From a virus: a DNA stretch of 24,611 nucleotides. Each line of letters begins with the position of its first letter. Position 1 is the first letter of the stretch. Both the position numbers and the translations under genes were made by a program. The DNA lies in IMG/VR virus record IMGVR_UViG_3300006641_000171, positions 1-24,611 of that record; one strand, 5' to 3'. Below are positions 11,510 through 22,694 of the stretch, piece by piece. The notes below the pieces were generated by a model that worked only from the letters and a program-made list of their open reading frames with translations, ran no database searches and was not told the DNA's origin.

Positions 11510-13042
11510 ATGAGCAATGCCTCGATCGCGCTTGCCCGCAAGCGAAGCGCACAACTGGCTGCACAGGCGATCAAGAAGCAGCCAGAGGTTATTGAAATCC
11601 CGCCTCATGTTTTGAAGGCAAGGGAGAGCTTCGGCTATTTTTGTGAGCTGATGGGCAAGAAGCCTGCTCGTCACATGAAGGAATGGCACCGAGCATTCCT
11701 TACCGGGCAGAGCAGTGATCACCTGCTAGACATCGCGGGGCCTAACACGGTGCTGCTCAGCCCGAGGGGTAGTGCAAAGTCAACGGTGGTTGGCCTACTG
11801 CTTGGCTGGTTGATCGGGCGTCACGCCGAGGCAAGGAAGCTTCTGCGCATCCTGTACGTCTCTTACAACGTTGATGTGGCGCGAAACAAGAGCGCTGCGG
11901 TTAAGAACCTGATCTGCTCGCGGGAATACCAGGAGATCTTCCCATCCGTGCGCCTGTCAAAAAGCAGGACGTCGGACGAGCTTTGGAGTATCGACTGGGA
12001 GTTCGCAGAGGTCGACGTCAGGGGCGAGGACGCGTTCACCATCGCCTGCGCAGGCCTGAAGGGAACGATCACGTCGAAGCGTGCCAACCTAGTGATCGTC
12101 GATGACGCCATCAAGAGTGCGGCGTCGATCGCCAACCCCGACATCCGCCGGGAGATGGAGAGCAACTGGACCAACGTGATCGTACCGACGATCTTCCAGG
12201 GTGGGAGGACAATCGCGCTGGGTACACGTTTTCACTTCGATGACCTGTTTGCGACGATATACACGGAGCAGAAGGGGTGGAAGGTTATCACCCAGTCGGC
12301 GATCCAATACGACGACGAAGGACGGCCAAAGTCCTATTGGCCGGAGATGTGGTCGACGAAATACCTACTGAGGCTGCAGGGCGACGACCGAGTGGCGTTC
12401 TCATACCAGTACCTCAATCAGCCGGTGCGGTCAGCTGAGTTAGGGATTTCGCCAGAGCTATTCGTCAAAGGCGAGGTCCCTGATCATTACGACACGATCG
12501 GCGTCGGCATTGACTTGTCGGCCGGCATGAGCGAAAGAAACGACTGGACGGTGTTCACCCTGGCCGGCCGGGTCGGCGACAAAATCTACGTCATCGACTA
12601 CCGGCGCATGAGGTCGATGGGCAACATCGAGAAAGTCGAGGCGTTGTGTGAGCTGCTGGTGGAGTGGAATCTGTTGGCTATTAACGACGAAGGTCAGTAC
12701 TTCCCGACCGCGTCCCCTGTGACGATTTGGCCTGAGGTCGTTGCGTATCAGAAGTCATTCGAGGGCGACCTGAAGCGAATCTTGTTCAACGAGTGGCAGC
12801 TGTACAACATCAGCATCAGCCCTGTAAAAGGGTTTCGCGGCGACAAGCTGGCCCGACTGCGGGGGATCATCGGCCTGTTCGAGGCCAAGAAGATCATCTT
12901 CAACAAGTACCGCGACTTTGGCTGCATGGTCGACGAGGTCGTTAACTTCGGCCACGCACCGCACGACGACTGCGCTGACTCACTCAATATCGTGGTGCAG
13001 GGACTTATGAAACGCGGTGGCGCTCAAGTCGAGTGGAACTAA
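11510..13042 (+). CDS. terL: Terminase large subunit, 510 aa
   Basis: Packaging motor: ATPase plus nuclease that pumps and cuts phage DNA at the portal. The ATPase Walker A is SPRGSAKST (residues 84-92) and Walker B is LVIVDD (194-199). A later motif, GTRFHFDDLF (238-247), fits the coupling region. The RNase H-like nuclease half begins with GVGIDLSAG (331-339, Asp335), with Asp345 nearby, and ends with HDDCADSL (485-492), the usual carboxylate cluster. Length is in the normal range of 450-650. The gene sits between a possible small terminase and the portal, the classical order. Its ATG has no clear Shine-Dalgarno sequence. Intact and complete. Confidence 0.96.
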   Translation: MSNASIALARKRSAQLAAQAIKKQPEVIEIPPHVLKARESFGYFCELMGKKPARHMKEWHRAFLTGQSSDHLLDIAGPNTVLLSPRGSAKSTVVGLLLGWLIGRHAEARKLLRILYVSYNVDVARNKSAAVKNLICSREYQEIFPSVRLSKSRTSDELWSIDWEFAEVDVRGEDAFTIACAGLKGTITSKRANLVIVDDAIKSAASIANPDIRREMESNWTNVIVPTIFQGGRTIALGTRFHFDDLFATIYTEQKGWKVITQSAIQYDDEGRPKSYWPEMWSTKYLLRLQGDDRVAFSYQYLNQPVRSAELGISPELFVKGEVPDHYDTIGVGIDLSAGMSERNDWTVFTLAGRVGDKIYVIDYRRMRSMGNIEKVEALCELLVEWNLLAINDEGQYFPTASPVTIWPEVVAYQKSFEGDLKRILFNEWQLYNISISPVKGFRGDKLARLRGIIGLFEAKKIIFNKYRDFGCMVDEVVNFGHAPHDDCADSLNIVVQGLMKRGGAQVEWN

Positions 13043-13051
13043 GATAGTCCT

Positions 13052-15265
13052 ATGAGCCAGGCTACTAGCGAACGTTTCCGTCGGATCATCGACGCTGCCC
13101 GCAAGCGCGACGGCCAGAGCGGGACTGACACGATGATCGTGAGCAGTCATCTCTCGCAGATGAAGATGTTCATGCTGCGCCAAGGCGTCGAGTTCTATCC
13201 TTCTCAGGACACGTTCGGATTCCGCAAGGCGTTCCTGGAGCAGTTAGTCCAGGAGAATGAGATTGACTGCCGGCTTGAAGGAATTGTTGACGATTTCCTG
13301 TTAGACGGCAAGGGGCTTTTTTATTTCCGGCCTATCAGGGATACCTATCGCCTGATGTGGTTCAGCAAGGAGAACTACAGGGCGTATTACGACGCATCCG
13401 GTCAACTCGAGGAGATTGAGCTGATCTACTCGTTTACGGTGCGTGATGCCGTAGGGGTACTGTCTATCCCAGGCCAGGACGGGGGATCAACTCGTTACGT
13501 CAAGTTACAAATCAAGCGGGACACGATCAGGGAAACAATCAGCACAGAGCGACCGTCGTTTGACACGGCGTTTGCCGCTGCCATGCTTTCCGCAGGGCAG
13601 AGCCGGACCTTAATCAACAGCCTGGGCTTCATTCCTGCCGTAGAGGCATTCAACACAATGCGCTCTACGGGCATGGATGCCACGGGAGAGTTCGATTGGC
13701 TGGCAGACCAAATCGTCACGCATGACGATCTCGTCAAGAATATCCGCACCAATATTCACTTCTTCGGCAACCCAACGCTGGTCTCCAGCCGACCGAAGCA
13801 CGATCTCGTCGAGTCGGGGGACGAGGATGCGGTTCGCCCGACGATCAGCTCCCAGGCCGGGTTCTATGCGGCCAACCGGCCGTCAACCCGAGTCAGCCAG
13901 CCCTATGGCGGTGGCGGTGGCGGGCTCAAGGTACCGCGGGTGATCGCGAATGTGGAGCCGACGGACCGCCTCCTCTACGTGACCCCAGATGCCGTCTCTG
14001 GGGATCAGAACCTGTATGCGCGTCAGTACCGCGAAGAGATTCGCACCGCGCTCGGCGGCGTTGACGAATTGAGCATCTCTGCTGGCGCCTCTGCCTTCGA
14101 GGTGAAGTCTCTCTACGGACGCGCGGCCACTACAGCCAAGCGCCGGTGCCGGGGCCTGCTGACCTACGGCCTGTGCAAGCTGTTTGCCTTGGTGATATTC
14201 CATGAAGAGAATATCTTCCGAGATTCATTCGCCGCGGGGGTAGGACTAGAGAAGCCGCCGGCTCCGATTCGTGAAGAGTTTCAGACACGGGACGAATTTA
14301 ATCAAGCAATGGAGGCCTATCAGGCGGCGTACGAGCAATACAAGCAGGCGCTAGAGAGTCAGATATCCGAGGCCGTACAAGCCAAGCAACTGCCGCCGGG
14401 AGTCGTCGGATTGATACCTGATGGCGACCGTCGCGTGGAGTGGCGCTGGAAAGGGCCCGTCTTTGAGGATTCCGCGGAAGATATACTGAACTCAAGCATT
14501 GTCGTGCGCAACCTGCAGGAACTCGGTGTCAACAGCATCGAGGCGCTGCGGTATCTCTTCCCCGATAAAACGGACGAAGAACGCAGCGCAATGCTCAGTG
14601 GCTATCCATTCCGGATGGCGCAAGCCACGCAGCAAAGCATTGGCACCTTCCTGTCGCTGATCCAAACAATGCGACAGACCCCCCACCCGCAAGCTCCTGA
14701 TCTTCCGCTGCTTGCGGACCCTCAGCTCGATTTGACCCCATATGTCTATCGAGCCCTGGACTTCTTGAAACGTGAGCTGACCTATGCAGGACAGTACAGT
14801 GATGACACAGGCTCCGGCGACCCCGCAGCCCTCAGTGATGCCGAGCGTGCCCGCGCCGAGCGCGGTCTACCAACAGACGCAGGCCCCAGCCGTCCAACCT
14901 TCGTACCAGACGGCTACGGCGCCACAAGTGGATCCGGCTTACCAGCAGCCGGCGCCGCAACAGGCGAATCCCTGGCAGGAGGCGTTCAACCGCCTGTCCG
15001 AAAGTCTGAGCGCGACACGGACCTCCCCGTCGCAGGCGCCTTACTCAGCGCCGACCCAACAGGCAGCGCCTACCCCGGCAACCTACTGGCCACAGCAAGC
15101 CAGTTACCAAGCGGCTCCTTCCGTTTCGGGGATGCCGATTTCGCCGCTCCCTCAAACGCAGGCCTATTCCCAGGCGATGCCGGCACCGGCCCAGAGCTGG
15201 AGCAACGCAGCAAGCGCGAACGAGAGCGACGAGTATCTCGAAAGCGTCAGCAACGAAAGTCTTGA
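13052..15265 (+). CDS. Portal protein, 737 aa
   Basis: Forms the dodecameric ring through which terminase loads DNA and to which the tail binds. Identified mainly by position (nine bases after terL, before a scaffold-like protein), size, and portal-like content: an alpha/beta body with repeated Phe/Tyr stretches (GKGLFYFRPIRDTYRLMWFS, near residues 86-105), a Gly-rich loop (YGGGGGGLK, near 285-293) and a long helical part with Gln/Glu/Ala-rich coils (420-450). The last 154 or so residues (from about 584) are read over the scaffold gene in another frame. They are Gly/Ala/Pro/Ser-rich and end in an Arg/Lys tail (RERERRVSRKRQQRKS), so they are probably disordered. Some portals do carry such tails, but the overlap is unusual. 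Start ATG at 13052, weak ribosome site. Confidence 0.88.
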   Translation: MSQATSERFRRIIDAARKRDGQSGTDTMIVSSHLSQMKMFMLRQGVEFYPSQDTFGFRKAFLEQLVQENEIDCRLEGIVDDFLLDGKGLFYFRPIRDTYRLMWFSKENYRAYYDASGQLEEIELIYSFTVRDAVGVLSIPGQDGGSTRYVKLQIKRDTIRETISTERPSFDTAFAAAMLSAGQSRTLINSLGFIPAVEAFNTMRSTGMDATGEFDWLADQIVTHDDLVKNIRTNIHFFGNPTLVSSRPKHDLVESGDEDAVRPTISSQAGFYAANRPSTRVSQPYGGGGGGLKVPRVIANVEPTDRLLYVTPDAVSGDQNLYARQYREEIRTALGGVDELSISAGASAFEVKSLYGRAATTAKRRCRGLLTYGLCKLFALVIFHEENIFRDSFAAGVGLEKPPAPIREEFQTRDEFNQAMEAYQAAYEQYKQALESQISEAVQAKQLPPGVVGLIPDGDRRVEWRWKGPVFEDSAEDILNSSIVVRNLQELGVNSIEALRYLFPDKTDEERSAMLSGYPFRMAQATQQSIGTFLSLIQTMRQTPHPQAPDLPLLADPQLDLTPYVYRALDFLKRELTYAGQYSDDTGSGDPAALSDAERARAERGLPTDAGPSRPTFVPDGYGATSGSGLPAAGAATGESLAGGVQPPVRKSERDTDLPVAGALLSADPTGSAYPGNLLATASQLPSGSFRFGDADFAAPSNAGLFPGDAGTGPELEQRSKRERERRVSRKRQQRKS

Positions 15266-15773
15266 GGTTCTGCAGCACTTCGGCCTTGAGGCCCCCGCGC
15301 TGCTGAACCGCTACGCCTGTGTCGTCGAAGACGCACTGCTGGCCCAGGCGCGTCAGACCGCCGAGGTAATGCAGCAGCTTGAGCAGCTCAGTGAATCGCT
15401 CGGCGCCAGCAAGATGGTGATCAATGCCGCCGCGGAAGACAACGCGGCCTATCACACCATGCTGACCGACCCCGACTTGCTGGCCGAGTACGTCAACGAG
15501 TTCTTCGGTCCCGAAGGCCCTTATCCGACTGAGACCTCCGAGGATCGCTTGGCTGCCGAGGTGTACGCCAACGAGGCTCGTTACCAGAGCGCGCAGTCGT
15601 ACCAACGCCCTCAGATGGACATCCCCTCGCCGGGTGTTCAGGCCAGCGGTGGCGACGACTTCTGGAACACCTTCGCCGCGATCAGCGATCGCAATCCCGC
15701 CGCCGCTTGGCAGCTCCTGAGTCAGGCCTCCCCCGAGGCTCTGCGCAGCAAGCTGCTGATCGCGGAAGGCTGA
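14802..15773 (+). CDS. Scaffold-like head assembly protein, 323 aa, overlapping the portal gene
   Basis: Starts inside the portal gene, in the +1 frame. ATG 14802 has AGGA about ten bases upstream; ATG 14784 (six codons longer) is the alternative. The first 154 codons overlap the portal frame and give a Pro/Gln/Ala/Thr/Ser-rich, probably disordered, stretch. The rest is not overlapped and looks folded and acidic: LESVSNESLEVLQHFGLEA, a helical middle around LAQARQTAEVMQQLEQLSES, then DPDLLAEYVNEFFGPEGPYP and a C-terminal helical part. An acidic, Gln-rich protein after the portal fits a capsid scaffold. No enzyme motif is visible. A strong terminator follows at 15785. The major capsid gene is 5.8 kb away instead of next door. 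Confidence 0.82.
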   Translation: MTQAPATPQPSVMPSVPAPSAVYQQTQAPAVQPSYQTATAPQVDPAYQQPAPQQANPWQEAFNRLSESLSATRTSPSQAPYSAPTQQAAPTPATYWPQQASYQAAPSVSGMPISPLPQTQAYSQAMPAPAQSWSNAASANESDEYLESVSNESLEVLQHFGLEAPALLNRYACVVEDALLAQARQTAEVMQQLEQLSESLGASKMVINAAAEDNAAYHTMLTDPDLLAEYVNEFFGPEGPYPTETSEDRLAAEVYANEARYQSAQSYQRPQMDIPSPGVQASGGDDFWNTFAAISDRNPAAAWQLLSQASPEALRSKLLIAEG

Positions 15774-16179: not shown

Positions 16180-16416
16180 ATGCGCCTTGCCGGCAGCCGG
16201 GAGACATTCTCTGCGCTGGCAAGGCGCTTTGCTGCGGATGAGTCCGTCAAAACGGACGACAGGCTGGCGACATTTTTCAATGCGTACGCACTCCTGCAGT
16301 CCAAAGGCTACGAGCAGGGTACGGCGCAGCGGTTAGCGGAAGACATCGCGCAGGGGCGTGCGCAAATGCCCCAATCGACACAACGTTTTGCTCGAATTTA
16401 TGGCGACCCATCCTGA
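16180..16416 (+). CDS. Small helical hypothetical protein, 78 aa
   Basis: Starts at ATG 16180, with a weak GTGAGC-type ribosome site; a TTG three bases earlier is less likely. The protein is alpha-helical and charged (SRETFSALARRFAADES, TAQRLAEDIAQGRAQMP) with no membrane segment, so it is not a typical holin. It overlaps the endolysin start by 17 bases, so the two are probably translated together. It could be a lysis accessory or a minor virion protein. Not recognised. Confidence 0.65.
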   Translation: MRLAGSRETFSALARRFAADESVKTDDRLATFFNAYALLQSKGYEQGTAQRLAEDIAQGRAQMPQSTQRFARIYGDPS

Positions 16417-17563
16417 GACGCTGACTATCGCGATCCGCGAAATCGAACGTTTTGAAGGGATAGAGCTTGAAGCATACCTGGACCCAGTTGGAATCCCGAC
16501 CATCTGTGCAGGATTGACGCGCTATCCCAATGGCCTGCCTGTTCGAACGGGGGACGTTTGCACCGCAGAGGTCTGCAAGGGCTATCTACGGCAGATGCTT
16601 GGTGACGAATTTGTGCCGTCACTGGAAAAGATTCCGGGATGGGCGCGACTGGGGGCAAAGCGACAGGCGGCATTGCTGAGCTTTGCGTGGAATCTGGGAT
16701 CGAAGTTTTACGGGGCCCCCGGATTTGAGACCATTAGCCGGGTGCTGCGAGAAGGTGCGGAACGACCCGAGGTCTATCAGCAAATGAGCGGAGCGTTGAG
16801 TCTGTACGTCAGGGCTGGAGGTCAGACGCTCCCGGGCCTGGTCAACAGGCGTAAGGCGGAGGGGGCGTTATGGGACGAGGAGGCGGGCGGGGTCATTGAG
16901 TTCGCCGCAATTCAGGACACATACCTGAAAAAAGCGACCATTGACAGTCGATACCTCTCGGACCAGGGCAAGCGACTGTATTCCGCGGGAGATGCGCTCG
17001 CGGTTAGTTGCGTAGAAGAGATCCCCGCAAACGCGCACGCATGGGTGCAACTAAACGGCTCGAGCGAGAGATGGGCAATCTTCCTGCCTCACTGGCAGGA
17101 GAAAGGGGCGAAACCTAGCGCCCGCCCGGTGAAAGTAAATTGGCAGGACTTCGGATCCAATGCAGGCAGGTACATCACGGTGGGCGAGGTCCTTCAATAC
17201 GACGCGCGCCGCGCACCAGCGGCTAACAGCAAAGAGGAGGCTGCGCTTCTGGAAGTGTGCAAGCAATTTGACGACATTCGAGCAGCCTGGAACGGCCCAC
17301 TGGGCGTAACAAGTGGCTACAGGCCGGAACCGATTAACGCACAGGTGGGCGGAGTGCCAGGCTCGTATCACACCAAAGGCATGGCGCTGGATATTTACCC
17401 CATTGGAGAGTCACTCGAGAAGTTCCATCAGTGGCTGATCCAGAGGTGGAGCGGCGGGTATGGGGACGGGCGACATAAGGGCTTTATCCATATCGACACG
17501 AGAGGCGGCGGCGGCTTCCACGCGCGAAGTGGTGTCAAGCCCGCTGTCGTCTGGACCTACTGA
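16400..17563 (+). CDS. Endolysin with GH24 muramidase and M15 peptidase domains, 387 aa
   Basis: Cuts the host cell wall at lysis. Residues 10-160 match GH24 (T4-type) lysozyme: Glu19 in RFEG, Asp28 in YLDPVGIPT (26-34) and Thr34 at the usual catalytic triad places. The common GYGxT after it is here CAGLT. A middle segment (165-235) looks like an SH3-type wall-binding fold. Residues 240-387 match an M15 D-Ala-D-Ala-type peptidase: VTSGYRPEPIN (303-313), SYHTKGMALD (322-331, His324 and Asp331) and FIHID (362-366, His364). The lead-in (YITVGEVLQYDARR) resembles that of cyanobacterial peptidases and supports a cyanobacterial host. The ATG at 16400 is preferred to a GTG at 16358 because the domain starts soon after it. 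No signal peptide, so a holin is expected elsewhere. Confidence 0.92.
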   Translation: MATHPETLTIAIREIERFEGIELEAYLDPVGIPTICAGLTRYPNGLPVRTGDVCTAEVCKGYLRQMLGDEFVPSLEKIPGWARLGAKRQAALLSFAWNLGSKFYGAPGFETISRVLREGAERPEVYQQMSGALSLYVRAGGQTLPGLVNRRKAEGALWDEEAGGVIEFAAIQDTYLKKATIDSRYLSDQGKRLYSAGDALAVSCVEEIPANAHAWVQLNGSSERWAIFLPHWQEKGAKPSARPVKVNWQDFGSNAGRYITVGEVLQYDARRAPAANSKEEAALLEVCKQFDDIRAAWNGPLGVTSGYRPEPINAQVGGVPGSYHTKGMALDIYPIGESLEKFHQWLIQRWSGGYGDGRHKGFIHIDTRGGGGFHARSGVKPAVVWTY

Positions 17564-17695
17564 TCAGCGGCCCTGTCCGCGGGTCTTCTTTCGACCGTGG
17601 TTGGGCTTCGACCGGCGACCCTGCCCTTGAAGGGTCTTCTTTTCGATGGGCTCGCGGTGCGGCTGAGCGGTGAGACTTTTCTTGACTCTAGTCAT
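17564..17695 (-). CDS. 43-residue highly basic peptide
   Basis: Starts at ATG 17695, which shares one base with the stop of the upstream minus gene (TGATG), and ends at TGA 17566-17564, directly against the endolysin stop on the other strand. It begins MTRVKKSLTA and contains the repeated pattern KKT..(L/R)..GQGR twice (residues 19-26 and 37-43). It is Lys/Arg/Gly/Gln-rich with almost no hydrophobic residues, so it would be disordered and bind nucleic acid or acidic protein. The opposite strand has no gene here. The coupling by overlap and the absence of waste space argue that it is real, but a gene of 43 codons needs support from homologues. Confidence 0.6.
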   Translation of the reverse strand: MTRVKKSLTAQPHREPIEKKTLQGQGRRSKPNHGRKKTRGQGR

Positions 17696-18117
17696 CAGAT
17701 TACGCGGATCGCCATTGCGCCGATATTGAACTGAACGGTGTCGCCGAGTTGCACGCCCACGGAAGTAGTGAGGGCGCCGGAGGCGAGGAAGTTGCCACTG
17801 GTCGACGCGTCCCAGATGCCGAAGTGCGTGACAGTCTGGGTGGTGCTGTTAGAGGCGCTTGTGGTGATCTGAACAACGCCGGTATTTGTGATCTCGAAGC
17901 CACCACCCGAAGCGGAACCTGCGGCGCTGAAGGAGGCACTCGAGACGGTGGTTCGCGTAGCTGATCCCTTGATCAGGCTGGTCACATCATTAGATGTGCC
18001 TGCAGTACCGGGATCGCCGGTATGCAGCGACACGTAGACGTTCGAGAGCGCAGCCGGAAATGTGGTGCCTTTGACCCAGTCAAGGACTTGCGTAGCGAAA
18101 TACTGGGAAAACGCCAT
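17695..18117 (-). CDS. Small phage virion/fibre-associated protein, 140 aa
   Basis: Starts with ATG 18117; AGAGAAG lies nine bases upstream. N-terminus MAFSQYFATQVLDWVKG, then VYVSLHTGDPG (residues 27-37), then a beta-rich Ser/Thr/Gly body ending THFGIWDASTSGNFLASGAL. This layout (amphipathic start, 'VSLHTGDPG', then beta-sandwich) is common among small phage structural proteins with tail fibre or capsid context. I do not rely on a family name. It lies downstream of two other minus-strand virion genes, in one transcription unit with them and with the 43-residue peptide. Confidence 0.8.
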   Translation of the reverse strand: MAFSQYFATQVLDWVKGTTFPAALSNVYVSLHTGDPGTAGTSNDVTSLIKGSATRTTVSSASFSAAGSASGGGFEITNTGVVQITTSASNSTTQTVTHFGIWDASTSGNFLASGALTTSVGVQLGDTVQFNIGAMAIRVI

Positions 18118-18173
18118 GGACTTGCTTCTCTACAAAAACTATTCTGGCAATTCCCTTCGCCGCCTGAGTTCAA

Positions 18174-19439
18174 TCAATAGCCACCGCCGTATGGAGTGAT
18201 GGAGGTCAACGTAGCGACATTGGAGTTGGCGCCGGATGCTGCACCGGAAATACGATGCGTCTGCTTGAGGCGGCCGTATGGGCTAAGTGTGCCACCTGCC
18301 GCGCCCTTCATGATGACAAGAGTTAAGCGTGGCAGTGCCTGCAATACTGCGGCGCCTTGGATGGCCTCTAACGTGGCGTTTGGCGCAAGGGTGCCACGCA
18401 GCGGGGCGGCGAGGGTAGCAGCGCTGTACAGCTTGGCGAGCGCAAGTCGAGCGTAAGGCGCCATAGATCCAGAGGCGGCGCCGATAAGCGAGGCGTACCT
18501 GAAGACCTGCAGGGTGACTTCAAAGGGGAGGGACTGCCACTGGTTTGTCGAAACGGTGAAGTAGTAAACGCCGGGATCAAGTAGCTCTGCTGATTCGTCG
18601 ACACTGGTGCCGTGAATATCGTCGGCATAGGCGTAGCCCTGGGCATTCAGCGGCAGGGGCTTATGGGCGCTGTCGAGGATGCCAACGGAGATGTAGCGCG
18701 AAGTGTAGGGAGATGTGGAACTGTTGGTGATTCGCAGCTGCGCGCGGCCGTCTGTTTCAACGGCAAAGAATACGGTATTAGTCCCTGACTGTGAGCCAAC
18801 ATTTCCTGTGGCAACGGCAAGCAGATTGCTGACGACGCCTAGATCTTGGGCCTTCTGCAGGCTATTGAATTTGACATAGCGCGACCGCATGAACGAGGCG
18901 CTGGTATCGTCGCTGCCGCCGTAAGGATGTTCGAGCGCCGGGACGGGAACTGCCCCAGAGAGCGTCGGGGGTACGTGCTTAAAGCCAATGTCAAAACCCT
19001 GAAACGCAATTGCGCCAAGGTCCGCGACAAGCTGCGTGCTGGGGCGAATCAGGGTTGCCGCGTACCTTGCAACCAGGACAGAGGTCGTCAGCGCAGCCAG
19101 CCGCGAGGCCCTGAATAGCCCCGCATCTGTCAGGCCGGCCGAGAAGGAGGAGGTATCGCCCTGGAAGATGAAGCCCTTGTTTAGCTGGGCAGAGAAAAGC
19201 GCTAGCGAAAAGCTCTCGCTGGCGAGAGGCATGCGGAGGCCCCTTGGCAGCGACACGTCGCTCGAGGCCAGGAAGAAGGCACTGCTCTCCGGCAGAAGCT
19301 TGCGAGCACAGGTGAAAGCTGCGCCTGCTCCTGTCAGGGCGAATGACTCGCTGTCAACATGCAGGAAGCGGACGTAAGTAAGCGAAGCTGTGGAGCCTTC
19401 CGCTTGATAACGACTCCGAGTCGCCTGAATCGAAGCCAT
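18174..19439 (-). CDS. Fibre-like virion protein with 22-residue repeats, 421 aa
   Basis: ATG 19439 has GGAG six to seven bases upstream. Residues about 30-118 show repeats of about 22 residues with Phe at 33, 55, 77 and 99 (SESFALTG, SSAFFLAS, SESFSLAL, TSSFSAGL). These resemble the 'GSFALTG' repeats of many phage tail or virion proteins. Residues about 186-312 form a beta-rich domain (VYYFTVSTNQWQSLPFEVTL), and 320-421 hold Gly/Ala-rich repeats (AASGSMAPYARL, GTLAPNATLE, GGTLSPYGRL) ending in PYGGGY. I infer a trimeric fibre or surface protein that could contact the host. The minus-strand location is opposite to the head genes. There is no enzyme motif. Confidence 0.8.
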   Translation of the reverse strand: MASIQATRSRYQAEGSTASLTYVRFLHVDSESFALTGAGAAFTCARKLLPESSAFFLASSDVSLPRGLRMPLASESFSLALFSAQLNKGFIFQGDTSSFSAGLTDAGLFRASRLAALTTSVLVARYAATLIRPSTQLVADLGAIAFQGFDIGFKHVPPTLSGAVPVPALEHPYGGSDDTSASFMRSRYVKFNSLQKAQDLGVVSNLLAVATGNVGSQSGTNTVFFAVETDGRAQLRITNSSTSPYTSRYISVGILDSAHKPLPLNAQGYAYADDIHGTSVDESAELLDPGVYYFTVSTNQWQSLPFEVTLQVFRYASLIGAASGSMAPYARLALAKLYSAATLAAPLRGTLAPNATLEAIQGAAVLQALPRLTLVIMKGAAGGTLSPYGRLKQTHRISGAASGANSNVATLTSITPYGGGY

Positions 19440-19459
19440 GCGTCACTCCGGCAAGAGGA

Positions 19460-19900
19460 TTACGCCAGAGTCAGCGCGCCGTTGGCTTGGTCGAAGTCGA
19501 TGGTCAGGCTTTCTCCATTACTGAGAGTCAGCGAGGAGCCATAGTCGTAGTAACCAATCAACGGATCAGCTGGCGACGTAGGCGTGTCATTGAACACGTA
19601 AACATACCTGAAGGGCCCTACAGATCCAGTCGCGCTCAAGGTGAGATCTGCCAGGACAAGGCGGAAGGTGCCAGAGGACTGGACGGCGCTAGTCGTGCTG
19701 ATATTGCGGCTGCTGAGGTTGGTGTAGGAGACCTGAGTAACGTTGGCCAGGATGCAATTAGCGGTCGAGGCAGTGGGAGGGCTGGACTCGGCGCTGGGGA
19801 CTGTGTTGCTCAGCGCGATTTTCAATTGGTTAGTCGAGAGGTTGTGAACACCGAGGCTCAGGTGTTCTACGAAGCCGTTCAGCTTGTTGAAGACCGCCAT
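19460..19900 (-). CDS. Phage virion structural protein, 146 aa
   Basis: N-terminus MAVFNKLNGFVEHLSLGVHN; LKIALSNTVPS (residues 26-36); YTNLSSRNISTT (near 59-70); then RLVLADLTLSATGS, FRYVYVFND and DPLIGYYDYGSSLTLSNGES (near 112-131). This order (start, 'ALSNT', 'TNLSSRN', 'PLIGYYDYGSS') is one I recognise from many phage genomes, where it is annotated as a structural or hypothetical protein of unknown exact role. It is probably a beta-rich virion part. The ATG at 19900 has no ribosome site, but an inverted repeat overlaps it. It heads the minus-strand block that contains the fibre. Confidence 0.8.
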   Translation of the reverse strand: MAVFNKLNGFVEHLSLGVHNLSTNQLKIALSNTVPSAESSPPTASTANCILANVTQVSYTNLSSRNISTTSAVQSSGTFRLVLADLTLSATGSVGPFRYVYVFNDTPTSPADPLIGYYDYGSSLTLSNGESLTIDFDQANGALTLA

Positions 19901-19921
19901 CGGGTCGTAGTATCGCGATGG
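19897..19921 (-). promoter_or_regulatory. Inverted repeat over the start codon of the 19460-19900 gene
   Basis: CCATCG (19897-19902) and CGATGG (19916-19921) are inverted copies 13 bases apart, and the first overlaps the ATG. The RNA could fold to hide the start, or a protein could bind here. It is short, so it could be chance. Confidence 0.3.
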
Positions 19922-19964
19922 GGTTAGTCTAGGTGATCAGGTTAACGGTCAAGAGCGAAGAGTG

Positions 19965-20204
19965 TTAACTCTCTTGCAATTGGCATTCGTCCGCCGCAGG
20001 ATTCTCGTCGCAGAAATCGAGGAACTTGCGTCTAAGACCCGAAGCAAAGCAATAGTCGACGTCACGCTGGACATCAGCCGAGGACGTTGCCCCTGGATCG
20101 TCGGGTGATGGAACCGATGGTTTTGTCATAGCCGGTTCTGCGGCATGGGACTGATATGAGCGCTCCAGGCGCCGCCGCACTTCGGCCCAAGCACGGCGGA
20201 TCAC
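19965..20204 (-). CDS. Small hypothetical protein, up to 79 aa
   Basis: The open frame runs from a GTG at 20204; an in-frame ATG at 20129 would leave 54 residues. Neither has a convincing ribosome site. The N-terminal part is Arg-rich; the rest is acidic (PSPDDPGATSSADVQRDVDY, then FLDFCDENPAADECQLQES). The Cys and Asp/Glu-rich end looks like a real protein and the strand matches its neighbours, but I know no family. A perfect AGAGT/ACTCT hairpin with a four-base loop (19959-19972) overlaps its stop. Confidence 0.45.
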   Translation of the reverse strand: MIRRAWAEVRRRLERSYQSHAAEPAMTKPSVPSPDDPGATSSADVQRDVDYCFASGLRRKFLDFCDENPAADECQLQES

Positions 20205-20209
20205 TCACC

Positions 20210-20238
20210 AGCCCAAGGAAACTACAAAAACTTGGGCT
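20210..20238 (-). other. Perfect 8-bp inverted repeat between the homing endonuclease and the small hypothetical gene
   Basis: AGCCCAAG (20210-20217) and CTTGGGCT (20231-20238) are separated by 13 bases. On the minus strand the hairpin loop begins with five T, but no T-run follows the stem, so it is a poor intrinsic terminator. It could be a binding site, an RNA structure or part of an insertion boundary. Confidence 0.4.
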
Positions 20239-20282
20239 CCTGGAATACCCCTGACGTAGTTCTTCTTCGGGGCCTGTCTACG

Positions 20283-20861
20283 CTAAGAAACTTTGCTGCG
20301 TAGCTTATGGCGCATAGTGACATGGACCAGTGGCCGCATTGATTTCTTGAGTCTGTGCATTGAAGCAGGGGGAATGATCAGCTTCTGGGACGCCTGGGTC
20401 CTTGGCATGTCGACCGGAAACCCTAGGTCGCTGATCCATGCGGCAAGCAGGGTTTTCTCGTCGGGGCTCATCCGCTTCCTAATCTCCCCGGTCCGACCGA
20501 CGAGGGTACCGTGGTCTAGCCACAGGTTGACTAGCCCGGATAGGCCGCAAAGATCCAAGACGCCGCGACTCAGTGTGCGCTCGTCCCTCGGGTAAAGCAG
20601 GTCGTACGCCCTCCAAAGTTCGTCGGTTTGGATCCGCGCTCGATCAAGGTCGTAAAAGCCATTGGTCGGCAATCGATCCCAGAAGATTTCAAGCGGGCCT
20701 GGATGCGCCTGCCTTAGCTGGTAGACCTGGGACCCGAGGTAGACCCGCTCAGTCTCCGTGCGGCAGAGTTCAAGCCAGGGCCGCTTGCGGCTGCCCTTGA
20801 GCGCAATGTCGCCCTTCCCCAAGCAAAAGCTCAGTACGTGCGCTACGAATTGCGCTGACAT
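20283..20861 (-). CDS. Second half of the split LAGLIDADG homing endonuclease, 192 aa
   Basis: This frame carries a second LAGLIDADG_2-like domain. It starts MSAQFVAHVLSFCLGKGDIALKG, where the helix-end Asp of the canonical 'LLGDG' is Lys (LGKGDI). It then has VYLGSQVYQLRQAHPG, ELWRAYDLLYPRDER and LLAAWISDLG, each of which aligns with a stretch of the upstream half. The frame is open further upstream to 21014, but the in-frame ATG at 20861 has GGAG nine bases before it and starts at the domain edge, so a separate 192-residue product is possible. It overlaps the first half by 92 bases, in the +1 frame. Joined, the halves would make one normal two-domain enzyme; unjoined, they may form a heterodimer or be a decayed gene. 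Confidence 0.7.
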   Translation of the reverse strand: MSAQFVAHVLSFCLGKGDIALKGSRKRPWLELCRTETERVYLGSQVYQLRQAHPGPLEIFWDRLPTNGFYDLDRARIQTDELWRAYDLLYPRDERTLSRGVLDLCGLSGLVNLWLDHGTLVGRTGEIRKRMSPDEKTLLAAWISDLGFPVDMPRTQASQKLIIPPASMHRLKKSMRPLVHVTMRHKLRSKVS

Positions 20862-21525
20862 CCCAGTGTTCTCCGGTGAAAAGGTGACGACGGCTGGGCG
20901 GTGCGTAGGAGAGCATTGCCTCTTGAAGCTTGGCCGTCTGCTTGGGATCAAACCTGAGGCGAGGCTTAACGAGCTCACCCTCCAGGTCTGAGCGTGCGCC
21001 CGTAAGGATTTCAAGCCAGCCGGCGATTAGGCACGCTTCGTCTGGTGTGTTGCCGACACGAGCGAGGAGTGATGAGCCGTCACCCAGGAGTCGCGCACCC
21101 TCGGCCCAGCACCAAGCAGCCGCGCGCGCGCCGAGGAGATCGAGCGCCGTAGACGTGATCCGTCGCTCGCCCTGGGGGTACAGGAGGTTGTAGACGGGGC
21201 GCAGCTTATTGGTTGAGACGCGGAAACGCAGGAACTGCGTACTGCGGCCATTGGCGCGAGGCCTGGTCTTGTAGGGAATAATCTCCGCCTTTGTGGCGAC
21301 GAATTGCCGGAACTCGGCGACCTTGTCATCCAAGAAAGCGGATTCGCTGACCCCGCTGGTCAAGGTCATTTGGATGTAACCCCCTGTGGGACTGCGATAT
21401 GGGACAAGGCTGCCATCAATCAGGAGCAAGCCAAGGAGACCTCGAACGTCCACGGCGTCCAAAGATTTCGCCCTATGGAATCCCCCTATAGTAAACGCAA
21501 GCACGCATTGCGCGCGCTCTCTCAC
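20770..21525 (-). CDS. First half of the split LAGLIDADG homing endonuclease, 251 aa
   Basis: LAGLIDADG enzymes cut a long DNA site and spread their own gene. LLGLLLIDGSLV (residues 30-41) is the helix motif with catalytic Asp37. Then follow GYIQMTLTSG, NGRSTQFLRFRVSTNKLRPV (near 92-111) and VYNLLYPQGERR (near 111-122), all typical of the LAGLIDADG_2 family. The domain ends near residue 208; the last 40 or so residues are out of frame with the second half and are probably not conserved. The GTG at 21525 leaves 26 bases to the divergent capsid gene. A TTG at 21462, with AGGGCGA upstream, would place the motif near the N-terminus, as is usual. No intron or intein is visible, so this is a free-standing gene next to the capsid gene. 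Confidence 0.75.
   Translation of the reverse strand: MRERAQCVLAFTIGGFHRAKSLDAVDVRGLLGLLLIDGSLVPYRSPTGGYIQMTLTSGVSESAFLDDKVAEFRQFVATKAEIIPYKTRPRANGRSTQFLRFRVSTNKLRPVYNLLYPQGERRITSTALDLLGARAAAWCWAEGARLLGDGSSLLARVGNTPDEACLIAGWLEILTGARSDLEGELVKPRLRFDPKQTAKLQEAMLSYAPPSRRHLFTGEHWDVSAIRSARTELLLGEGRHCAQGQPQAALA
21481..21495 (-). promoter_or_regulatory. T7-type promoter-like sequence facing the homing endonuclease
   Basis: On the minus strand TTTACTATAGGGGGA matches 12 of 15 bases of the T7 RNA polymerase promoter core (CTCACTATAGGGAGA). It lies just ahead of the TTG start candidate at 21462. I saw no other copy in the window and no T7-type RNA polymerase gene here, so this may be chance. Confidence 0.2.
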
Positions 21526-21551: not shown

Positions 21552-22694
21552 ATGTGGGTGGACAATGACTTTCCCAAGCTGCTAGGCGCAGAGCTTTATC
21601 GGCCCCACCCTGGCTACATCATCGAGATGGCGGTTGAACCCGTCGTCGTGCATGACTTCGCCAAGCAGCCGGGCCAGACTGTTCAGCTCGATCGTTACCG
21701 CTTCTGGGGCAATCCTGGCAACAAGGATTCCCGCGAGCGCACTGCCGATCAAACGCTGGGCACTGCATCTAGCCGCAATATCGTCAAGGACAAGGTCCTG
21801 GTGACGCTCAAGGAGTACACCGGCCCCGCCGACCCCCTTGACCCCACTGCTCCCTCTACCTTCAAGGTGGCCCGGGAGACCCTGCTAACCGCTCAGCGCC
21901 TGCTGCTGGACTCCGGGAACCTGAACGTGTTCCACCAGTCCATCGGTTCTCTGACTCTGCTGGACGACTATCGTCGCTGGCGTGACCGTGTCTTTGCTGA
22001 CGAACTGTTCAAAGCAGAGGCCAACGGCAAAGCTGATAGCACCCAAGGTGGCTATTACTACCCGCTGAACAAGACTAAGGGCAGCTCTGCTCCTTACTTG
22101 AGCTACAGCGCTGGTCAGTCGGCCAAGTTCGACGTCAAGACCGACCTCTTGGCAGTGGTCAAGGACCTGCGGAAGCGCAACGTCCCAACCTTTGCCGATG
22201 GGTACTACCGGTGTATCGCGGATCCCACCGCAATGATGCACCTCCGCCAGAACGATGCGTTCCGTGAGATCGCTCGTTATGCCGGCAATGGTATGGTCAA
22301 CCCCCTGCAACCTGAGCAGGCGCCCAACGCCAACTTCTTCTATGGCATGGGCCCCGCATACGGACAGGCGGGCTTCGTGAATGGTCAACCTGTGATGCCC
22401 ACGGGCTTCCTCTTTGAGGGCGTTCGTTGGTTCGAATCGACCAACCTTCCCGAGAAGAGTCTGCAGGTAACTATTACCGATGCCTCGATCTCGTCCGCGG
22501 TAACCACTGCCGCACCGATGCTGTTCTTCGGCCCTCAGGCCGTCGGCGTGGGTATCGGTGGCAACAACGCGCAGATCCTCCTGAACAATAACGACGACTT
22601 CGCTCGTTATATCATCATGATCTGGTCGCTCTTCGCCGGTTTCGAAATTCTGAATAAGGATTTCATTACCGTCGCCTACTCGTTCGTGTACTGA
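21552..22694 (+). CDS. Probable major capsid protein, 380 aa
   Basis: Forms the head shell. Identified by size, a perfect ribosome site, a decoration-like gene 16 bases after it with an equally strong site, and connector genes downstream. Features: N-terminal MWVDNDFPKLLGAELYRPHP, an extended arm-like part with FWGNPGNKD (near residues 52-60), a long helical stretch (ARETLLTAQRLLLDSGNLNV, near 116-135) typical of capsid spine helices, YRCIADPTAMMHLRQNDAFR (near 218-237), and a beta-rich hydrophobic C-terminus ending FITVAYSFVY. I cannot assign a precise fold by eye; a HK97-type fold is the general expectation. It is not adjacent to the scaffold gene; a fibre, lysis and homing-endonuclease block lies between. 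Confidence 0.8.
   Translation: MWVDNDFPKLLGAELYRPHPGYIIEMAVEPVVVHDFAKQPGQTVQLDRYRFWGNPGNKDSRERTADQTLGTASSRNIVKDKVLVTLKEYTGPADPLDPTAPSTFKVARETLLTAQRLLLDSGNLNVFHQSIGSLTLLDDYRRWRDRVFADELFKAEANGKADSTQGGYYYPLNKTKGSSAPYLSYSAGQSAKFDVKTDLLAVVKDLRKRNVPTFADGYYRCIADPTAMMHLRQNDAFREIARYAGNGMVNPLQPEQAPNANFFYGMGPAYGQAGFVNGQPVMPTGFLFEGVRWFESTNLPEKSLQVTITDASISSAVTTAAPMLFFGPQAVGVGIGGNNAQILLNNNDDFARYIIMIWSLFAGFEILNKDFITVAYSFVY

Follow-up and report, generated by a model that had tools for sequence, protein, structure and literature searches.

The scaffold Nu3 of phage lambda is made from an internal start within the upstream head gene C, which encodes a protease; the two are read in the same frame and share residues. 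Out-of-frame pairs, in which unrelated proteins come from one stretch of DNA, are known from A/B and D/E of phiX174 and from Rz/Rz1 of lambda, and long overlaps of this type are usually linked with tiny genomes. We know of no out-of-frame overlap between a portal and a scaffold gene, lambda C/Nu3 being the nearest case in principle, though it is in-frame. No report of such a pair was found in the literature searched, with most subscription papers outside the reach of that search. The median length of overlaps in DNA viruses is 15.6 nt, and that of +1 overlaps is 14 nt, with an interquartile range of 8-26 nt (PMC8903798).

Here we analyze a 24.6-kb viral contig (the window, 24,611 nucleotides), which is related to Synechococcus phage S-EIV1. 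Its head genes include a pair that shares 482 bases, and we consider it very probable, from the sequence comparisons below, that these bases encode two real proteins, a portal tail and the arm of a likely scaffold made by internal initiation. The features of this region, all on the plus strand, are:
11510..13042, +, terminase large subunit (context; phrog_38, E=8e-74)
13052..15265, +, portal protein gene, 737 aa (phrog_20475; Foldseek on the AF2 model; directly after the terminase large subunit)
14784..15773, +, gene for a probable scaffold of 329 aa with a net charge of -23 (ORF, homologues, gene order, predicted helices, charge)
14784..15265, +, 482-nt overlap read in two frames, as portal residues ~578-737 and as scaffold residues 1-160 (conservation, dual purifying selection)
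14784..14786, +, internal scaffold-frame start codon ATG, at the same position across relatives
14802..14804, +, second in-frame ATG, taken as the start in the original prediction; missing in many relatives
21552..22694, +, major capsid protein (context; phrog_1357, E=3e-18; 69% identity to an uninterrupted S-EIV1 frame)

The likeness to lambda C/Nu3 lies in a probable scaffold that would come from an internal start and in coding sequences that overlap. The differences are that the second protein is read in another frame, that the residues are unrelated and that the upstream gene encodes a portal and not a protease. While the phiX174 pairs belong to a tiny genome and Rz/Rz1 are lysis genes, here an overlap of about 500 nt joins two probable head-assembly genes of a tailed phage of about 80 kb. 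The closest head cassette is that of S-EIV1 (KJ410740), which has a homologous portal (47% identity over 95%), a homologous second protein in the same gene order, a +1 overlap that is 554 nt long and an internal Shine-Dalgarno sequence that is strong. The GenBank record of S-EIV1 differs, in that the second gene begins at 59863, after the portal stop, and the overlap is unrecorded.

The portal ORF runs from ATG 13052 to TGA 15263-15265. Its product matches phrog_20475, annotated as 'virion structural protein, head and packaging', over residues 7-685 (E=1e-187), and the gene adjoins that of the terminase large subunit, as in tailed phages. Though confidence in the AF2 model is low, with a mean pLDDT of 53, Foldseek gives portals or portal-bearing phage head/tail complexes as its 34 best PDB matches, the best having an E value of 3e-5. 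In a viral structure library, most of the named matches are portals or head-to-tail connectors. A portal fold for this protein is thus supported by the structure search. The motif ..DFLKRELTYAG.. closes the conserved core of the portal.

The second ORF extends from ATG 14784 to a stop at 15771-15773, in the +1 frame relative to the portal. Its first codon position is the second of the portal, its second is the third and its third is the first. A TGA in this frame lies at 14778-14780, just 5' of the ATG. The original prediction placed the start at 14802 and gave an overlap of 464 bases. We reject this start, since relatives conserve the one at 14784 and many lack the 14802 ATG, and the shared region is corrected to 482 bases. 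In the window itself, the AGGA before 14802 gives the better Shine-Dalgarno score (dG -4.0 vs -2.0 for 14784). The sequence ATGCAGGACAGT at 14784-14795 is nearly invariant in the clade of the window, and in genes that have the 14802 ATG, the AGGA within this sequence could be used by that codon as well.

We compared 185 distinct relatives whose portal gene is complete, which have 49-100% core identity and include the isolate S-EIV1; they were gathered from viral contig scans and one genome contig scan. A +1-frame overlap of about 440-662 nt is kept in 183 of them and begins at the same point, just past the conserved portal core. The internal start codon is ATG in 153 of the 185 and GTG in 32. 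No other homologue without the overlap was found in the viral and genome contig scans apart from the two exceptions. One of these (L081, IMGVR_UViG_3300034954_001794) has a 56-nt deletion, relative to the near-identical L080, just after the internal start, and both frames are broken; this is either an assembly error or a defective variant. The other (L166) has its portal stop codon 24 bases short of where the stretch ends, which is probably an end error. The original prediction had proposed that both frames be checked in related phages, and had named homologous portals ending near residue 580 as the case against it. Such portals were looked for and not seen. Judged by this distribution, the overlap appears to be older than the common ancestor of all the S-EIV1-like phages sampled. 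As regards frame age, the portal tail (0.20) and the scaffold arm (0.17) are near equal in the correlation of their codon usage with the reference. Portal relatives were also seen in contigs binned as Euryarchaeota, Bacteroidetes, Rhodobacteraceae and other MAGs (L235-L245), which are most likely mis-binned phage contigs.

The signals for translation of the inner frame were compared between clades picked by portal protein identity alone. The sequence AAAAGGAGATGAGTTATG, which contains the internal Shine-Dalgarno sequence and the start, is identical in 67 of 67 S-EIV1-type portal genes, whereas 2 of the 71 Lys-Glu pairs elsewhere in the cores of these portals use AAGGAG. In a second clade, AAGGAG precedes the GTG start in 21 of 22 genes. 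In the clade of the window, AAGGAG is found in 0 of 77 genes, and 14784 has a weak Shine-Dalgarno match. A stop codon (TGA or TAA) lies just 5' of the internal start in most relatives. The fixed position of the start, together with a fixed Shine-Dalgarno sequence in two related clades, indicates that the inner frame has a translation start of its own.

How much the open frames say by themselves depends on chance. When the portal codons of the window are redrawn synonymously, the second frame is still open in 21% of redraws. The same procedure gives a mean of 15% over 74 relatives, and averages of 6% in the S-EIV1-type clade and 4% in the GTG-type clade. In a single GC-rich window, an open second frame is therefore weak to modest evidence and not striking, and it was because of the 21% that we turned to the relatives to decide. 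Among pairs with a core divergence of 0.15-0.20, the difference at portal third positions is 0.125 in the overlap vs 0.40 in the core. At scaffold third positions, which are portal first positions, it is 0.146 in the overlap vs 0.40 downstream. On these comparisons, the conservation in 183 of 185 relatives and the low wobble substitution in both frames are far beyond chance.

Per-frame rates, as the original prediction had suggested, were obtained from 32 disjoint pairs, with sites counted by what a change does in each of the two frames. The rates are dNN 0.052, dNS 0.174, dSN 0.127 and dSS 0.62, the last from few sites. The resulting dN/dS in the overlap is 0.41 (0.33-0.50) for the portal and 0.30 (0.24-0.37) for the scaffold, compared with 0.81 for the control, a false +1 frame placed in the portal core. 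The analysis was repeated in the S-EIV1 clade (portal 0.60 [0.44-0.80], scaffold 0.30 [0.23-0.37]) and in the GTG clade (portal 0.46, scaffold 0.33). These ratios indicate purifying selection on both the portal and the scaffold frames, and each of the two clades, taken separately, shows it as well. In sliding windows, scaffold constraint peaks midway along the overlap (dNN/dNS 0.12-0.28), and constraint on the portal is greater near the start of the overlap and at its basic end. The central claim of the original prediction, that a portal C-terminus and a scaffold-like N-terminus are encoded by the same DNA, is thus borne out, as both ORFs appear real from their retention in relatives and from the selection on each.

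These data bear on the readings in which one of the two frames is spurious. If only the scaffold frame were real, the portal would effectively end near residue 580 and the remainder would be open by chance. Core conservation does end at the motif given above, and evolution is faster in the tail than in the core, but motifs within the tail (ERARA..GLP, AGGV and RRVSRKRQRRKS) recur among relatives. In the converse redraw, with scaffold residues fixed, the portal frame of the window is open in just 0.4% of cases, yet it is open in nearly all relatives. The suppression of scaffold wobble changes within the overlap and a portal dNN/dSN with an upper limit of 0.50 also speak against this reading, which we regard as highly improbable. 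If instead the overlap encoded the portal alone, the second protein would begin after the portal stop, as the GenBank CDS of S-EIV1 does, and the chance openness of the second frame in the window would fit. However, portal wobble divergence drops about threefold exactly within the overlap, the scaffold dNN/dNS has an upper limit of 0.37, as against 0.81 in the false frame, and the internal start and its Shine-Dalgarno sequence are fixed; this explanation is hardly credible either.

Two further alternatives accept both frames and concern how the second protein is made and what it does. A programmed +1 frameshift could yield a portal-scaffold fusion, in place of or alongside the free scaffold, and both the +1 register and the fact that the second frame is open from 14781 onward would allow it. 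We think this very unlikely, since the start codon is fixed, as is the Shine-Dalgarno sequence in two clades, which favors initiation over frameshifting, and the stop codons that most relatives have shortly before the start also argue against it. The overlap could also be real and the second protein be something other than a scaffold, for example a head completion or an internal virion protein. The second protein has no family or fold match, which is consistent with such a role, but its placement between portal and capsid genes, its acidity and its predicted long and C-terminal helices favor a scaffold, and no better scaffold candidate was seen adjoining the second gene. We therefore hold this last alternative to be rather unlikely, and the preferred reading is that the second protein is probably the head scaffold, as judged from gene order, acidity and predicted helices.

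The gene order can be set beside that of S-EIV1, in which terminase, portal, second gene, one small ORF and major capsid protein follow each other. In the window, the second gene likewise lies between the portal and capsid genes, with an endolysin gene and minus-strand ORFs intervening. In this interval (16358-21329), the endolysin gene lies at 16358-17563, and two of the ORFs on the minus strand have matches to phrog_240 'head protein' and phrog_644; the counterpart of the interval in S-EIV1 holds a single small ORF. In S-EIV1 (L002, KJ410740), positions 60859-61989 form an uninterrupted plus-strand frame that is 69% identical to the major capsid protein of the window. What GenBank has at this place is not a capsid gene but an ORF on the minus strand (60784-61545), together with a C-terminal piece (61540-62010).

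The predicted structure of the second protein, from an AF2 model of low confidence, and the charged end of the portal give these features:
14970..15011, +, short helix, scaffold residues 63-76, PWQEAFNRLSESLS (predicted; in the stretch of strongest scaffold constraint)
15197..15262, +, basic portal end, last 22 residues ...ERERRVSRKRQQRKS, with acidic ..NESDEYLESVSNESLE in the other frame (sequence, charge)
15252..15506, +, long helices, scaffold residues 157-241, nearly all downstream of the overlap (predicted)
15660..15746, +, C-terminal helices, scaffold residues 293-321, a candidate coat-binding end (predicted structure, putative function)

In this model, residues 1-156 are disordered except for the short helix, and a long helix is predicted at residues 157-228. 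Searches of Pfam, PHROGs and the PDB for family and fold gave no significant match to the scaffold-like protein. Phage scaffolds are often too diverged for sequence or fold matches. Since a match of either kind is lacking, we assign a likely function only and claim no family membership.

The original prediction also held that both ends are disordered and that the portal tail is basic. The disorder is reproduced by the models, in which pLDDT is mostly below 50 at portal residues 611-737 and at scaffold residues 1-60 and 78-156, and both ends would tolerate overprinting because they are disordered. The basic character holds for the last 25-30 residues or so of the portal and not for the whole tail. 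The last 30 residues carry a charge of +6 in the window (+5 to +9 across 67 relatives), whereas the tail as a whole is near neutral (-1 in the window) and is acidic outside the basic end. In the +1 register, a portal Arg written as CGA or AGA forces GAx, that is Asp or Glu, in the other frame, and CGA accounts for 35% of Arg codons in the last 22 portal codons vs 14% in the core. The opposite charges of the two frames arise from this property of the code. Thus, the charge mirror is partly made by the code and is not independent evidence that portal and scaffold bind. That the disordered portal tail and the scaffold arm bind each other in prohead nucleation, tying together their sequence evolution and supply ratio, is possible but doubtful.

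We suggest the following mechanism. Ribosomes that start at 13052 would make the portal with a mostly disordered C-terminal tail of about 160 residues, the basic cluster coming last. Others would initiate at 14784, inside the portal mRNA and shifted by one base, and the product would be acidic, mostly helical and most likely the head scaffold, with its first 160 residues or so forming a disordered arm rich in Pro, Gln, Ala and Ser. Internal initiation rather than frameshifting would make the second protein, and the shared region may couple the supply of two proteins that nucleate the prohead. The strongest constraint falls in partly different stretches, at the start and basic end for the portal and in the middle for the scaffold.

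An overlap of about 500 nt between two probable head-assembly genes thus persists through about 50% protein divergence in a widespread family of dsDNA cyanophages of about 80 kb. It was missed by the GenBank annotation of S-EIV1, the one isolate examined, and the N-terminus of the scaffold-like protein would be corrected across the S-EIV1-like phages. Since S-EIV1 is an isolated phage, it may serve as a natural system for asking why a large genome retains such an overlap.
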